The notes under the pieces: model-generated | Databases searched by the model: none | What the model was told of the DNA's origin: nothing | What the model saw: the letters and a program-made list of their open reading frames with translations, nothing else | Program-made: the position numbers and the translations under genes | From: an uncultured Cycloclasticus sp. | GTDB lineage: Bacteria > Pseudomonadota > Gammaproteobacteria > Methylococcales > Cycloclasticaceae | Length of the DNA: 64,000 bases | Assembly (NCBI GenBank): GCA_913060865.1 | Contig: CAJXTU010000001.1 | Coordinates: forward strand, 1 to 64,000 | Direction of reading: 5' to 3' | Shown here: piece after piece, positions 1-21,610 of the stretch | Layout of the letters: every line of letters starts with the position of its first letter | Numbering within the stretch: position 1 is the stretch's first letter

Positions 1-1
1 A

Positions 2-970
2 GAGCGTCACGGTAAATCTGAAGATGGCGCATACACCTGTGTTTATCATCAATGGGCTTTTGATGCAAAAGGCGATTTACGCGGCGTACCTTTCCAACGT
101 GGTCTTGCTGGTAAAGGCGGCATGCCAAAAGACTTTGATAAAAAGCAACATAGCTTACGTAAAGTGCGTGTCGTTAACCATTGCGGCGCTATTTTTGGCA
201 CCTTTAGTGACGACACCCCCGATATTGAAACTTATATGGGTGAAGACGTTAACTATCACTTTAAGCGTATTCTGAACCGCCCGATTGAAATCTTAGGCAC
301 CACTCGTCAACATATTAAAGGCAACTGGAAGTTCTATTCAGAAAACACCAAAGATCCTTACCACGCGAGTTTATTGCACTTGTTTCACGCAACCTTTGGT
401 TTGTATCGGTCCTCGCAACAAGGCGCCTCGATCATCAACAACGACTTCCACTCAATCCTATGGGCAAGCAGTGGCACCGAGGATGAGGGTGCGTTAGACG
501 ATATGAAAAAAGACAAGCTACGGACGCTGCAAACGGGGGAATATGAATTAAAAGATATGTCCCTACTAGCCGGCACACAAGAGTTTGATGACGGTGTTAC
601 TTTAGTTATTTTATCTCTGTTTCCTTCGCTGGTTTTACAACAGATTCAAAATACTCTCGCATTCCGTCAAATATTACCCAAAGGTAAAGATGAGTTTGAA
701 TTGGTCTGGACTTACTTTGGCTATAAAGATGATACTGAAGAAGTGCGTAATTACCGCTTAAAGCAGTTCAATCTTATTGGTCCTGGTGGGCTCATCTCGA
801 TGGAAGATGGTGAGTCAACAGAACTATGTCAAAATGCCATTGTTAGAGATGGCGAGTATACGAATGTAATTCGGATGGCTGGTGATGAAGCAACGGGTGA
901 CGACCACCTAGTGACTGAAGGCTTGATTCGTGGCTTGTGGAAAGGCTACCAAAAGATAATGGATTTCTAA
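2..970 (+). CDS. Rieske ring-hydroxylating oxygenase, alpha subunit (5' partial)
   Basis: The reading frame is open from base 2, so the gene is cut by the window edge; the first ATG in frame (122) is internal. The visible part begins inside the Rieske domain and keeps its second ligand pair, Cys-Val-Tyr-His, followed by QWAFDAKGDL. The catalytic domain has the mononuclear iron motif DPYHASLLH (Asp-x2-His-x4-His) near base 355, then GGLISMEDGE near the C terminus, where the third iron ligand Asp usually sits. DPYHA-LLH resembles the salicylate/anthranilate hydroxylase branch rather than naphthalene dioxygenase; that is a family-level guess from memory. No beta subunit follows: the next gene is an FNR-type regulator after a terminator. 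It should hydroxylate an aromatic ring in the cytoplasm with electrons from a ferredoxin encoded elsewhere. Confidence 0.93.
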   Translation, partial: ERHGKSEDGAYTCVYHQWAFDAKGDLRGVPFQRGLAGKGGMPKDFDKKQHSLRKVRVVNHCGAIFGTFSDDTPDIETYMGEDVNYHFKRILNRPIEILGTTRQHIKGNWKFYSENTKDPYHASLLHLFHATFGLYRSSQQGASIINNDFHSILWASSGTEDEGALDDMKKDKLRTLQTGEYELKDMSLLAGTQEFDDGVTLVILSLFPSLVLQQIQNTLAFRQILPKGKDEFELVWTYFGYKDDTEEVRNYRLKQFNLIGPGGLISMEDGESTELCQNAIVRDGEYTNVIRMAGDEATGDDHLVTEGLIRGLWKGYQKIMDF

Positions 971-1102: not shown

Positions 1103-1819
1103 ATGACAACAAATAAAGTCGTCTCAAACTGTTCTGAATGTGTCCTAGCAAAAAGGTGCGTGCCGTCAGGCATGCCCACTGAAAAGTTGTTCCGGTTTGA
1201 AAATATTGTCCAAACCAATATTCCATACAACACAGGGGAGTCTTTATTTGAACAAAATACCAAAACAAACTATTTGTACGTCGTAAAAACAGGTTCATTT
1301 AAAACCCAAATGGTCTCCGCTCATGGCACAGAGCATGTCCATAACTTCTTTTTACCTGGCGAAGTCATTGGCTTAGATAGCGTCGGCATGGGTATGACTC
1401 TTAATAGCTCCAAAGCACTCGAACCAAGTTTAGCCTGTAAAATAGACTACCCTCTGCTACGCAATATACGAAAAGAATTTCCGACCTTATCTGACTTTTC
1501 AGTCAAACTGTATAGCACGGCCTTAGCATCTATGAGCCAAGTACAAAACATCATCTCTCTTCAAGCTGCATCCTCACGGTTAGCCGCCTTTTTGATATTA
1601 CATCATCGCCGTTTACTTTCATCTAATTTGCAAACGACTTCATTTCAATTACCAATGACTCGCCAAGATATAGCAAGCCACTTAGGTCTTGCAGTTGAGA
1701 CCGTCAGCCGATCTTTTTCCAAACTGATTGATATTGGCTGTATTGAAAAAGAGGGCCGCAGTATTCAAATTATTGATAGCAAAAAACTGGAGCAACTGGC
1801 CAACGCCTCTAATCGATAA
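1103..1819 (+). CDS. fnr: FNR-type oxygen-sensing transcription regulator (Crp/Fnr family)
   Basis: A 238-residue Crp/Fnr protein with cyclic-nucleotide-binding fold and C-terminal winged helix. Cysteines at 10, 13, 19 and 112 reproduce the E. coli FNR 4Fe-4S ligands (20, 23, 29, 122) with a constant offset of ten. The recognition helix VETVSRSF places Glu199, Ser202 and Arg203 on FNR Glu209, Ser212 and Arg213, which read TTGAT-N4-ATCAA. It should therefore be an oxygen-labile dimer acting on FNR boxes. It sits alone between two Rieske oxygenase genes, separated from the first by a terminator. This is an unusual place for a global regulator, and a perfect FNR box lies before another oxygenase operon at 21597. 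It could be the main FNR of the cell or a dedicated paralogue; this window cannot tell. Confidence 0.93.
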   Translation: MTTNKVVSNCSECVLAKRCVPSGMPTEKLFRFENIVQTNIPYNTGESLFEQNTKTNYLYVVKTGSFKTQMVSAHGTEHVHNFFLPGEVIGLDSVGMGMTLNSSKALEPSLACKIDYPLLRNIRKEFPTLSDFSVKLYSTALASMSQVQNIISLQAASSRLAAFLILHHRRLLSSNLQTTSFQLPMTRQDIASHLGLAVETVSRSFSKLIDIGCIEKEGRSIQIIDSKKLEQLANASNR

Positions 1820-10054: not shown

Positions 10055-11473
10055 TTATTTATAATCGCGTAATTGATCTATATCAAACAAATCTTCAGTC
10101 ACATTTTCACCCATCCCATCCCAGTCTGTAACCATTTCCATACTCGACACACGCTTCGTTGTTTCGTTAACCACCATTACAGTTTTAAATGACATATCAC
10201 CGACTGATGGCCTAAAGTCTCTTACGTCATCCCAGCTTCTAAATGGGTAACCACGTGGATCCCATGTCATAAAGTATTGACTGTAGTACATCTCTTTATC
10301 TATGTATGAACGGCGTTTAGAGTATTGGTATTTACCTGTCTTATCAATAATTTCTAATATCCAAACCGGCCTTAATTCAACCTCAGTCGATACTACATTA
10401 CACTTATCAGCAGTGAAGACTTGTGCGTTATAAGCATGCCCCACTTCAGGTGAAGCTAATATTAACCTTTCACCCACTAAGTTATATTCAAACTTACTAA
10501 CATCTGTTTTAACCCAATAAGAGCGCCAATCATCCCATGTTAGCTCTAAACCAGCGGCTAACGGATCTTGTGAATCAGACCCTGTCAGGATTCTAGTACG
10601 CCTTAGGCTAGGTATATAGACTTTAAAGTCATCTTCTTTATCAGCACTTGCATACCGTTGACGTACACCAGCGAAACCACGAATATCATTAGGTTCTAAG
10701 ATGAACAATGCCCCTCCTTCTATAAACTCCTCTTTACCATCAATATCACCAAATGGTGTTACATTCGTTCTATTGTGAAAGTGCCACCAATATATATCAG
10801 CCTTATATGACCTATCTATTACACCTTCCGCGGTGCACCCATTCATAGATATTGGGTTAAATGCCCCCGTATCTGAATTTGTTGAGTGAGCGACATAATC
10901 CCAATTAAGCTCAAGTCCATTTTTAGGGTGTAAAAAAGGAATAGCAGTTGTAGCTGGACCCTCTAGCAATGCCAGCTTACCATTTTCATAAACCAGCTCA
11001 CCTTTTTCATTCGCAATCACTTTAATATTTTTATCAATGAGTTCTTTAGTCCCTTTATAGTATCCATCATGCATGTAATAGGTATTCGTGGGTACGATGG
11101 TTATTTTACCAATGCCCCCCCAAGAACGTCCTATAGCATCGTATTGCTCTTTCGGTAAATAGTCTTTGAGCCAAGGGTAGTTTGCTTTATTGTCTTTAGT
11201 AAGAACCAAGCCTGGTTTTAATTCAGCCGGTAGTTCTGTTTTATCTATAATGTCATAGGCATCATACCCACGGAGTTCTTTCCATTTTTTAGCCTTTTCT
11301 ATTGCTGCAGGCTGTGAAATTAGGCTAACCCACTTATCATAATTAGGGTTATTTTGTTCTGCTGCAAAGCTTTTCCAAGCTTCTAGCGCCCTATTTGTAT
11401 CACCTATTACCGAGCCAGAAACTACCATTGCGGCAGCTAATGTTAGTGATGTCGTTATTTTTTTTACCACCAT
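10055..11473 (-). CDS. DUF1329 periplasmic/outer-membrane-associated protein (paralogue 1)
   Basis: A 472-residue paralogue of the protein encoded just downstream. It has a signal peptide (SLTLAAAMVVSGSVIG) and the same blocks: WKELRGYDAYDIID, NTYYMHDGYY, IYWWHFHNRTN, LEPNDIRGFAGVRQRYAS, YIPSLRRTRILTGSDSQDP and the end IDQLRDYK. Differences cluster in the middle and near the C terminus, where the partner ends in a GGIIIRNN-type strand and this one in FKTVMVVNE. Retention of two divergent copies suggests different ligands or a heteromeric carrier. The ribosome site AGGAGAG and the position after the DUF1302 gene make it part of the transport block, though a strong terminator at 11555-11590 separates them. 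Confidence 0.9.
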   Translation of the reverse strand: MVVKKITTSLTLAAAMVVSGSVIGDTNRALEAWKSFAAEQNNPNYDKWVSLISQPAAIEKAKKWKELRGYDAYDIIDKTELPAELKPGLVLTKDNKANYPWLKDYLPKEQYDAIGRSWGGIGKITIVPTNTYYMHDGYYKGTKELIDKNIKVIANEKGELVYENGKLALLEGPATTAIPFLHPKNGLELNWDYVAHSTNSDTGAFNPISMNGCTAEGVIDRSYKADIYWWHFHNRTNVTPFGDIDGKEEFIEGGALFILEPNDIRGFAGVRQRYASADKEDDFKVYIPSLRRTRILTGSDSQDPLAAGLELTWDDWRSYWVKTDVSKFEYNLVGERLILASPEVGHAYNAQVFTADKCNVVSTEVELRPVWILEIIDKTGKYQYSKRRSYIDKEMYYSQYFMTWDPRGYPFRSWDDVRDFRPSVGDMSFKTVMVVNETTKRVSSMEMVTDWDGMGENVTEDLFDIDQLRDYK

Positions 11474-18579: not shown

Positions 18580-19479
18580 TTACCCGCGCTTTGATACCTT
18601 GAAACCAGCATAAAAACTGCCCGCAAAAATCAATATCATGCCAACAATTTGGTACTGCTCAGGCATAACCCCTAGAAACAGCGCATTAATAATGATGATA
18701 TAAACCGGTACTGTATTTAAAAACAACGAGGCACGTGAGGGGCCGATAATTTTCATCCCCTTGTTCCAAAATAATAATGACAACACCGTTGGCCCTGTAC
18801 TAATGAACATTAAGGCCCAAAATGCATTCAGTGTTAAATTGGGTCTTTGTATGACCATGGCCTCATATACCCCCAATGGAATAACAACCACCAGCGACAA
18901 CAATACCCCCAAGGCGGTCAGCAGCAGGGGAGACATACCCAACATCGCTTTTTTAGCAATAAGGCTATAAGCAACCCAACTAACCATCGCCGTCAGTACC
19001 AATAAATCTCCCACATTGAAATTAAGTCGCAATAAATTAGTTAAGTCACCTTCGCCAAGTATAAAGACCAAACCAACAATAGTGATTGTTGCAGCAACCC
19101 AGTGATGGTAATTCAGTTTTTCTTTTAAGAAAGCGGCTGCCATAAACGCCGTTAATAGTGGCGTTAGTGAATTTAACAGCCCCGCATTAGTTGCTGTGGT
19201 AAGCCGCAGGCCGTAGTACAGAAATGCTTGAAAACCAATGACCCCAGTGGCTGCCAATGCAATAACAACCCACCAGTTAGTCATATATTTAATTTTTTTA
19301 AGCTCACCAGCTTGCATCAGCAATAATACAAAAATACTACCTCCAATGACCAAACGTGTGCTGATAATTGACCAAGGGCCTAAAAAATCCGATAAATATC
19401 GACCCAATATCATATTACCGCCCCATAGCAGTCCCGCTATGTTTAGTAGCATAACGGCTTTAAATGTTTCGTTTTTCAC
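18580..19479 (-). CDS. EamA/DMT family transporter
   Basis: A 299-residue inner membrane protein with ten predicted helices in two EamA repeats; GLLWGGNMILGRYLSD opens the first and MVSWVAYSLIAKKAM the second. The family exports metabolites such as amino acids or drugs; the substrate cannot be read. It is convergent with the quinone oxidoreductase, nine bases apart, and downstream of a terminator of the oxygenase operon, so it is a separate unit. The start follows a purine-rich stretch at 19485. Confidence 0.9.
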   Translation of the reverse strand: MKNETFKAVMLLNIAGLLWGGNMILGRYLSDFLGPWSIISTRLVIGGSIFVLLLMQAGELKKIKYMTNWWVVIALAATGVIGFQAFLYYGLRLTTATNAGLLNSLTPLLTAFMAAAFLKEKLNYHHWVAATITIVGLVFILGEGDLTNLLRLNFNVGDLLVLTAMVSWVAYSLIAKKAMLGMSPLLLTALGVLLSLVVVIPLGVYEAMVIQRPNLTLNAFWALMFISTGPTVLSLLFWNKGMKIIGPSRASLFLNTVPVYIIIINALFLGVMPEQYQIVGMILIFAGSFYAGFKVSKRG

Positions 19480-19552: not shown

Positions 19553-20089
19553 TTAAAGATAAACATTTAAGCTTTTATTTTTGAAGATATTTTGGTCCAA
19601 AATAATTTTACGTTTTGCTAATTTCAACACCCCGTTAACGCGCCTTATTAGATCGGTACGATGCCCTAACATCGTATGCTCTTCATCTTCGTTGATGTTT
19701 CTATGAACCGTTACTAGAGAGTAAACCCTAAATTCATCTGGATTCTCTGTTAGCTCAACTTCAATATTTGTTACAACATGCGCACTACGTGTGGCAGGGT
19801 CTTCTGACCAACACGTACCCGTTTCGGTTCGTATGATTCGCTTAACCAAACATTCCATATCGTCGTTGTAATACGCCGTATCCATGATAGTAGGCTCTTT
19901 CTCGTTTCTACGATAGCGTTGGTAACGATAGGGCATCCAATAATGAATGTCTTCGGTCAACATATCCAACCAGTCCCTAAATTCTTCGTTATCGTGGTGT
20001 CGCGCTTCACGGTATAAAAACTGCTGCACTTCATTAATTAGTTCCAAAGAAGCCACTGACCCTGTATTGCTTTTTGTTTCATTAGTCAT
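19553..20089 (-). CDS. Ring-hydroxylating dioxygenase, beta subunit
   Basis: A 178-residue beta subunit with the family opening (EVQQFLYREARHHDNEEFRDWLDMLTEDIHYWMPYRYQR), the ARSAHVVTNIEVE strand and the RKIILDQNIFKNKSLNVYL end. It follows its alpha gene by 9 bases and precedes a terminator. It resembles the beta chain at 4474 in length and motifs, so both probably arose by duplication of an ancestral naphthalene/biphenyl-type pair. Confidence 0.94.
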   Translation of the reverse strand: MTNETKSNTGSVASLELINEVQQFLYREARHHDNEEFRDWLDMLTEDIHYWMPYRYQRYRRNEKEPTIMDTAYYNDDMECLVKRIIRTETGTCWSEDPATRSAHVVTNIEVELTENPDEFRVYSLVTVHRNINEDEEHTMLGHRTDLIRRVNGVLKLAKRKIILDQNIFKNKSLNVYL

Positions 20090-20098
20090 CTAAACCCC

Positions 20099-21430
20099 CT
20101 ATACCGTTTTCTTGCCCGCATAACGCGGTGTGTAGCGGGTTGGAACATCGTCCCATTTATTGGCGTTCATCATGTCCGCCCAGCGCTCATAAAACAGGCG
20201 TTGGTTAGCATCATTAAATTGACCAGCATAAACGATTCCGGGTAGCTCTTCATGTTCAATTCTACGGTTTATTCCACAACCATAATGAAGTTTGCCTTTA
20301 CGAGTAACCACGCCTTTATTAACCGTCGTATTACCTTCCCAATTCTCGCCATCATCCATTTCTAACACACCCGCTGGGTTGAAGGTTTGCATACAACCAA
20401 TATTGATTGCTTGCTTAATTTCATCGGGCATATTTTTATTAACAATTGTCCACATGCGCATCTCAAATTTACGAGGCCCGCGTGGTAACCAAACACGGAA
20501 TGTCTGAATACCGGGTAAAAATGAGCAATTAGGGAACAACGACACGGATGCCAGCGATCCAAATATTTTTGATCGCATCTCACCCAATCGCTCTGCCATT
20601 TTAGGGCGGATTTTTTCGTAGTACTCGAGTACTTTAGGCTGGCCTAAAATGGCAATATCAGCAAGACCATCGGTACCAAACTCCCAGCCATGACCATTCA
20701 TACTGGCGTGATAACTGTCTGTCGGGTCTGCAGGCGGAAAGCCCTCATTATTGTTCATCGCTTTAAAGCCTGAATCGTGCGTCCATAAGGCGTGGTAGGC
20801 ATCTCCAATAAAATTCTCAACGCCAAATTTCCAGTTAGCATTAACGTAGTTTTTAATGCCACCACCAATAAACTCCGTACCACCTTCATCTTGGTCCAGC
20901 ATGATATCTAAATACCATCTAAAGTCGCCTAAGAACTCTTCTAGTGAAGGCGCTTCTTCATCAAACGTGGCAAATATTAAGCCTTTGTAGCTATCGACTC
21001 TAGCTTGCTGTAGCCCCCATTTGCTTTTGTCTATATCACCTTCATCATAAACATGTTCGTTAGATAAGCCTTTTAACTCGCCATCGGTTCCAAAAGCCCA
21101 GCCATGGTAGTTACAGGTAAAGTTTCGCGTATTACCATCATCTGCATAGCAAATCTTATTACCTCTGTGGGTACAAGAGTTAAGGAATACTTTGACACTT
21201 CCATCTTTTTGGCGGGCAGCAATAACACCATCTTCACCCATATAGGTGGTATAAAAATCGTTGGTGTTCGGCATCATCGAGTCATGCGCTATAAATTGCC
21301 AAGCTTTGGCAAATATTTGCTCTAACTCTTGTTCGTAAATTTCTTGTTCCCAAAAGATACGGCGATCGACCCAGCCTTCTTTTAAGTCCATATAGCGACT
21401 GTAGTCACTTTCTAGTTTTTTATTACTCAT
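20099..21430 (-). CDS. Rieske ring-hydroxylating dioxygenase, alpha subunit, next to a BenD-like dehydrogenase
   Basis: A 443-residue alpha subunit. Rieske ligands are Cys86, His88 (CTHRG), Cys106 and His109 (CNYHGW). The iron site GDAYHALWTH gives Asp210, His213 and His218, and GVLEMDDGENW contains the third ligand Asp. Overall pattern and size match naphthalene/biphenyl/benzoate-type dioxygenases. The gene downstream encodes its beta subunit. Upstream are a 226-base leader with a perfect FNR box, two hairpins and then a BenD-like dehydrogenase. BenD-like enzymes act on dihydrodiols with a carboxylate, so an aromatic acid may be the substrate; this is inference, since the iron-site sequence differs from BenA. 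Confidence 0.95.
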   Translation of the reverse strand: MSNKKLESDYSRYMDLKEGWVDRRIFWEQEIYEQELEQIFAKAWQFIAHDSMMPNTNDFYTTYMGEDGVIAARQKDGSVKVFLNSCTHRGNKICYADDGNTRNFTCNYHGWAFGTDGELKGLSNEHVYDEGDIDKSKWGLQQARVDSYKGLIFATFDEEAPSLEEFLGDFRWYLDIMLDQDEGGTEFIGGGIKNYVNANWKFGVENFIGDAYHALWTHDSGFKAMNNNEGFPPADPTDSYHASMNGHGWEFGTDGLADIAILGQPKVLEYYEKIRPKMAERLGEMRSKIFGSLASVSLFPNCSFLPGIQTFRVWLPRGPRKFEMRMWTIVNKNMPDEIKQAINIGCMQTFNPAGVLEMDDGENWEGNTTVNKGVVTRKGKLHYGCGINRRIEHEELPGIVYAGQFNDANQRLFYERWADMMNANKWDDVPTRYTPRYAGKKTV

Positions 21431-21504: not shown

Positions 21505-21543
21505 TTGTCCGTTAAACTTATTTTTAATGGGCTTAACGGACAA
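21505..21543. repeat. Perfect 11-bp inverted repeat in the oxygenase leader
   Basis: TTGTCCGTTAA (21505-21515) and TTAACGGACAA (21533-21543) are exact reverse complements separated by 17 bases. On the minus strand it lies 75 to 113 bases before the start codon at 21430, just downstream of the predicted start of transcription. No T tract follows on either strand that would make a terminator for a known gene. It may be an operator of a dimeric repressor or a leader hairpin. A second small hairpin (AAAAGCG/CGCTTTT, 21483-21503) follows it. Confidence 0.6.
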
Positions 21544-21596
21544 CCACCGTGACGATGAATAAAAGCATCGTACATCAAAATACATCAAAAGAAAAT

Positions 21597-21610
21597 TTGA
21601 TTTAAATCAA
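21597..21610 (-). promoter_or_regulatory. Perfect FNR box with associated promoter of the dioxygenase operon
   Basis: TTGATTTAAATCAA is an exact match to the FNR consensus TTGAT-N4-ATCAA. Reading the minus strand, a -10-like TACGAT lies at 21572-21567, predicting a start near 21560, about 43 bp from the centre of the box. This is close to the -41.5 spacing of class II FNR activation. Two tandem copies of TACATCAAAA (21571-21590) fill the space between. The FNR-type gene at 1103 is the obvious candidate regulator. Confidence 0.78.

Follow-up and report, generated by a model that had tools for sequence, protein, structure and literature searches.

The window analysed here is a stretch of 64,000 nucleotides from an uncultured Cycloclasticus sp. 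(contig CAJXTU010000001.1, positions 1 to 64,000). Cycloclasticus degrades PAHs and is ubiquitous in the sea. The window contains a ring-hydroxylating dioxygenase operon, an FNR-type box in the gap ahead of it and a gene for an FNR-type regulator. The features discussed below are the following:

1103-1819, plus strand: FNR-type regulator of 238 aa, assigned as the dpr-2 orthologue by tree, synteny and residues; about 20 kb from the box
10073-10086, no strand assigned: further perfect TTGATN4ATCAA match, taken for a decoy; lies in the codons for FDIDQLRDY, the conserved C-terminus of a DUF1329 protein
18580-19479, minus strand: EamA-family permease, final operon gene and equivalent of Q91_2242 (Pfam, gene order)
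19553-20089, minus strand: dioxygenase beta subunit, assigned as rhd2beta (Pfam/NCBIfam, gene order)
20099-21430, minus strand: ring-hydroxylating dioxygenase alpha subunit of 443 aa, assigned as rhd2alpha (Pfam/NCBIfam, orthology to the gene of genome G015)
21505-21543, minus strand: 13-bp inverted repeat (TTGTCCGTTAA...TTAACGGACAA) within the 5′ leader predicted for rhd2
21572-21567, minus strand: −10-like element TACGAT, 24 bp after the box, with a predicted start near 21560
21597-21610, no strand assigned: FNR-type box TTGATTTAAATCAA, proposed DPR-2 operator by synteny with the Q91_2244-2242 promoter bound by DPR-2 (PMC8547461)
21657-22439, minus strand: SDR dihydrodiol dehydrogenase (BenD-like), upstream of the promoter and on the same strand (Pfam/NCBIfam)

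The sequence-only reading had placed a perfect FNR box in the promoter of a ring dioxygenase operon, with a predicted transcription start about 43 bp away, and this description holds. TTGATTTAAATCAA is an exact 14-bp palindrome of the TTGATN4ATCAA consensus at the position given, and it is intergenic, lying in a 226-bp gap between the SDR gene and the same-strand operon (alpha, beta, permease), where about 166 bp separate its near edge from the alpha ATG (21430). From the −10-like TACGAT, transcription is predicted to start about 43 bp away from the centre of the box. Class II sites normally have their centre near −41.5 and about 22 bp to the −10 element; the spacing of the rhd2 box to the predicted −10 is 24 bp, and the class II geometry of this promoter is approximate. 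The promoter scan found no sigma-70 −35/−10 pair near the box or the predicted start, which is expected because the promoter would be activator-dependent. The 130-nt rhd2 leader folds with a z of −2.65. The strong hairpin formed by the inverted repeat has no U-run in the transcript direction and was not scored as a terminator, and the leader matched neither a known RNA family nor a terminator. The leader of G015 has, by eye, an inverted repeat of different sequence (CTCATTCTGA/TCAGAATGAG).

The regulator gene was said to stand among other oxygenases, and it is indeed flanked by dioxygenase genes. Upstream of it, a gene truncated by the start of the contig (122-970) also encodes a dioxygenase large subunit. 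The contig break falls within a dioxygenase large-subunit gene (window 1-121); since a near-identical copy of the gene end is found on the small contig C38 of the same assembly, the break is probably repeat-driven. The end of contig C5 is placed just upstream of the window by synteny.

The regulator and the operon were identified by comparison with Cycloclasticus P1. G015 is a complete genome from this genus, and an uninterrupted run of 27 of its genes (C1:2342838-2372868) agrees with the functions published for all P1 locus tags named from Q91_2218 to Q91_2244, with dpr-2 as Q91_2232 and the permease, beta and alpha genes as Q91_2242-2244. In G015, the qPCR primers published for rhd2alpha and rhd3alpha match with 0 mismatches and give products of 199 and 120 bp, as published. 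The G015 gene matched exactly by both rhd2alpha primers shares 96% identity with the alpha gene of the window. In the tree, the window regulator and DPR-2 of G015 form one fully supported clade, and the window protein has L91, D92, T99 and L100 at the DPR-2 sites mutated in P1 (PMC8547461). By primers, tree, residues and gene order, the alpha gene is rhd2alpha and the gene at 1103 is the dpr-2 orthologue. A further FNR paralogue beside RHD-1 (C9:72883) was considered as the equivalent of P1 DPR-1 and rejected, as neither the mutated DPR-1 residues (L93/D94/T101/L102) nor the gene order fit.

Work on P1 provides the function. DPR-2 ChIP-seq peaks include the Q91_2242-2244 promoter, SPR demonstrated promoter binding by DPR-2 with a KD in the nM range in the presence of c-di-GMP, and a dpr-2 knockout abolishes expression of the rhd2 operon in shaken cultures (PMC8547461). 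DPR-2 is described as a PAH/c-di-GMP-dependent activator required for growth on naphthalene and phenanthrene, its signal being PAH-driven c-di-GMP in shaken cultures (PMC8547461). DPR-2 and its target promoter are already published for strain P1, while the window belongs to another Cycloclasticus species; in essence, operator and regulator are known. Both systems have in common the 238-aa regulator with its mutated residues, the alpha-beta-permease operon and the gene order, and they differ in species and in that DPR-2 was treated as a cNMP-type c-di-GMP receptor (PMC8547461). Because P1 DPR-2 binds the promoter of the same operon and is needed for its expression, the box at 21597-21610 most likely serves as an activator site, the operator of DPR-2, and the regulator encoded at 1103 very probably binds it. 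Binding and activation were shown in the other strain, P1; that this box is the DPR-2 site and that its geometry is class II-like is what we infer here.

The genome was surveyed by pattern searches and a sample of stretches. The perfect TTGATN4ATCAA occurs at 18 sites against 3 for the reversed control, and the TGATN4ATCA core at 120 against 30. Among 15 perfect sites inspected of the 18, two are intergenic (the window box and C12:54792) and 13 lie inside genes. A perfect match was consequently rejected as proof by itself: because most inspected perfect sites fall in genes, the perfection of the palindrome alone is weak evidence, and the case rests on position, conservation and recurrence before dioxygenase genes. 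The decoy at 10073 belongs to one of two paralogous DUF1329 genes (window 8557 and 10073) ending in FD[IV]DQLRDY, the codons of which mimic FNR boxes and constitute a trap for motif scans.

An enrichment of the box at oxygenase promoters, which the sequence-only reading had proposed to look for, was found by pattern search: a perfect TGATN4ATCA core occurs within 300 bp upstream of 5 of the 22 dioxygenase alpha genes of the genome, against 0.4-0.75 expected (P about 5e-5 to 1e-3). Across 18 genomes of the genus, CTGATCTNNATCA was found about 40 times, against 3 for the reversed pattern. The sister dioxygenase operon (C11:30142) has a core-perfect box in all nine genomes, followed in eight of them by a −10 element at exactly 22 bp. 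The genome's own equivalents of two further published DPR-2 targets carry boxes too, ATGATTCAGATCAT upstream of the pdxA/RHD-3 operon (perfect core, −10 at 22 bp) and TTGATTTAAAACAC upstream of the ferredoxin reductase operon (one core mismatch, −10 at 21 bp).

Conservation of the box in relatives, on which the earlier proposal had been staked, is clear for the sister operon and divided for rhd2. The rhd2 box of G015 (TTGATTTGAATCAA) lies at the same distance to the ATG (−180), with TAAGAT again 24 bp after it; much of the surrounding gap has diverged from the window, yet the box and the −10 element are kept. Upstream of rhd2alpha in G004 there is a box variant without the spacing. The rhd2alpha orthologues of G005 and G008 have no upstream box, although both genomes encode DPR-like regulators. 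A substitute box upstream of the SDR gene was looked for in the latter two genomes, and none was found.

These data bear on the simplest alternative, a palindrome that arose by chance in AT-rich intergenic DNA and regulates nothing. Such an origin would agree with the intragenic location of most inspected perfect matches and with the absence of the box in two of five rhd2 orthologues. It would leave unexplained the retention of box and −10 element amid diverged flanks in the nearest relative, the enrichment before dioxygenases and the location in a promoter equivalent to a known DPR-2 target, and we regard it as very improbable.

Boxes of this type also precede other genes. In three genomes the promoter of ccoN (cbb3 oxidase) has the same box type with a −10 element exactly 40 bp away, a class I-like arrangement. 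ccoN is a classical FNR/ANR target. In the window's genome, this box (C8:77218) is located directly downstream of the ANR-like gene. A truncated haemoglobin gene (Bac_globin, C5:126582-126989) adjoins the RHD-3 operon and has the FNR-like box TTGATTTAAGTCAT upstream; the corresponding boxes in relatives are TTGATTTGGATCAT (G015, C1:2347112) and TTGATTTAAATCAT (G008, C1:2297002). At C9:75811-78232, a gene judged by its sequence to be Hcp-like (hybrid cluster protein) is divergent from a gene for a cysteine-free, DNR-like CRP/FNR regulator, with TTGACCTACATCAA between them at C9:77542; they are possibly a nitric oxide response pair.

The protein encoded at 1103-1819 matches the Pfam models HTH_Crp_2, cNMP_binding and Crp, and its best PDB match is FNR of A. 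fischeri (E about 1e-31). Alignment to FNR confirms the four cluster cysteines and the Glu-Ser-Arg recognition residues claimed for it: C10, C13, C19 and C112 correspond to FNR C20/C23/C29/C122, and E199-S202-R203 to E209/S212/R213. With 144 bits, the protein falls below the 228-bit cut-off of the NCBIfam Fnr model; this cut-off is strict, since the ANR-like protein of the same genome also fails it (174 bits). The four [4Fe-4S] cysteines and Glu-Ser-Arg are invariant in all 19 DPR-like proteins of the genus, and the only five invariant residues among the first 40 are three Cys, one Leu and one Pro.

The residues beside the cysteines are different. Window DPR-2 has V14 and R18 at the positions of FNR S24 and L28, and the 14-member DPR-2 branch never has Ser24 or Leu28, Ser24 being replaced by Val, Thr, Ile, Ala, Phe or Met and Leu28 by Arg, Lys, Gln or Asp. 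The ANR-like protein of the genus (C8:76468) retains both. Ser24 substitutions in E. coli FNR lower its O2 sensitivity, and O2 reactivity is reduced by changes next to the cluster cysteines both in this protein and in P. putida paralogues (PMC4505428). The D154A variant of FNR is active in air because its dimer persists (PMC4214427); the replacement of Asp154 by Met in DPR-2 was nevertheless down-weighted as a sign of O2-independent dimerisation, because Asp154 is missing from the genus' ANR-like proteins as well and the position is too variable within the genus to serve as a marker.

DPR-2 thus shares with FNR of E. coli and Aliivibrio fischeri and with Pseudomonas ANR the four cysteines, Glu-Ser-Arg, the TTGATN4ATCAA site and, approximately, the class II distance. 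It differs from them in Ser24->Val, Leu28->Arg and Asp154->Met, in the 144 versus 228 bits and in regulating oxygenases, whereas FNR and ANR regulate respiration. The P. putida proteins PP_3233 and PP_3287 are not known to us as dioxygenase regulators. Like DPR-2, they are FNR paralogues with four cysteines and altered cluster-adjacent residues; their slower reaction with O2 was measured (PMC4505428), while a slower reaction of DPR-2 is suggested by its residues.

The sequence-only reading went on to suggest induction of the operon at low oxygen or its repression by FNR. Its structural part stands (a real box, an activator-like distance and a nearby FNR-type regulator with intact cysteines and Glu-Ser-Arg), but induction by low O2 and repression by FNR stay conjecture, the regulator being the orthologue of DPR-2, which is published as a PAH/c-di-GMP-dependent activator (PMC8547461). 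A related possibility is classical low-O2 control, in which the ANR-like FNR (C8:76468) or an O2-labile DPR-2 binds the box and induces the operon as O2 falls. The ANR-like protein may bind this box as well, since it has the same recognition residues as DPR-2 and the third FNR-type paralogue and since ccoN uses the same box type. Moreover, rhd2alpha of C. pugetii PS-1 is expressed on pyruvate as well as on PAH, so that PAH as the sole signal fits poorly and there is room for another one (PMC10338962). On the other hand, in shaken cultures loss of dpr-2 by itself is enough to abolish rhd2 expression (PMC8547461), DPR-2 lacks Ser24 and Leu28, and the open-licence literature searched yielded nothing directly relevant on low-O2 or FNR control of such dioxygenases and no report of low-O2 induction. 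Because Ser24 changes lower O2 sensitivity, and DPR-2 has neither Ser24 nor Leu28, a classical anaerobic switch at rhd2 is unlikely, and we give classical low-O2 control as a whole little credence.

DPR-2 could, at the other extreme, be a pure c-di-GMP receptor with structural or relic cysteines, O2 having no part. The SPR affinities of about 30-40 nM and the c-di-GMP-dependent promoter binding speak for this (PMC8547461). However, all 19 DPR-like proteins, whose identity to DPR-2 goes down to 36%, have every one of the four cysteines, while the residues proposed to contact c-di-GMP are variable: 12 of the 19 have Glu for Asp92, and 8 retain Thr99. Furthermore, the published DPR proteins were purified by an ordinary procedure with EDTA and no cluster was sought, the paper making no mention of cysteines or an Fe-S cluster in DPR (PMC8547461); in the open-licence papers searched, no Fe-S cluster tests on DPR-2 were found. 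A role for c-di-GMP alone therefore appears improbable, about as much so as classical low-O2 control.

The explanation that we consider probable is activation from this operator by DPR-2 at a class II-like position, the protein most likely still having an O2- or NO-reactive but O2-hardier [4Fe-4S] cluster. A DPR-2 dimer would sit on the box, the centre of which would lie at about −43, at or close to the class II position, and would touch RNA polymerase there; its binding would switch on rhd2alpha, rhd2beta and the permease gene. Judging from its residues, DPR-2 most likely keeps a cluster that reacts with O2 or NO but withstands O2 better than the E. coli FNR cluster does, which would enable DPR-2 to work in cells needing O2 for the dioxygenase. 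c-di-GMP, as published, may act together with the cluster. Since the DPR-2 cluster would be less O2-labile, low O2 is more likely to modulate the rhd2 operon than to act as its on-switch. The invariant cluster ligands (19 of 19) and the same box type before ccoN are compatible with such a role, and DPR-2 may be O2-tuned. More tentatively, and in our view less probably than not, Cycloclasticus may have evolved a group of FNR-type regulators that serve ring-hydroxylating dioxygenases alone, with [4Fe-4S] clusters that the replacement of Ser24 and Leu28 has fitted to withstand moderate O2; expression of the PAH dioxygenases would then have a dual dependence on O2 and c-di-GMP.

The reports on expression conflict: P1 is described as needing PAH signalling for rhd2 and rhd3 (PMC8547461), and PS-1 expresses both without PAH (PMC10338962). 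If the master PAH regulators are O2-tuned Fe-S proteins, this tuning could help to explain the PAH dependence in P1 versus the expression of rhd2alpha regardless of PAH in PS-1, and the published c-di-GMP binding data would call for repetition with anaerobically prepared DPR protein. O2, beyond the substrate, would then set the expression of degradation genes in plumes and sediments.
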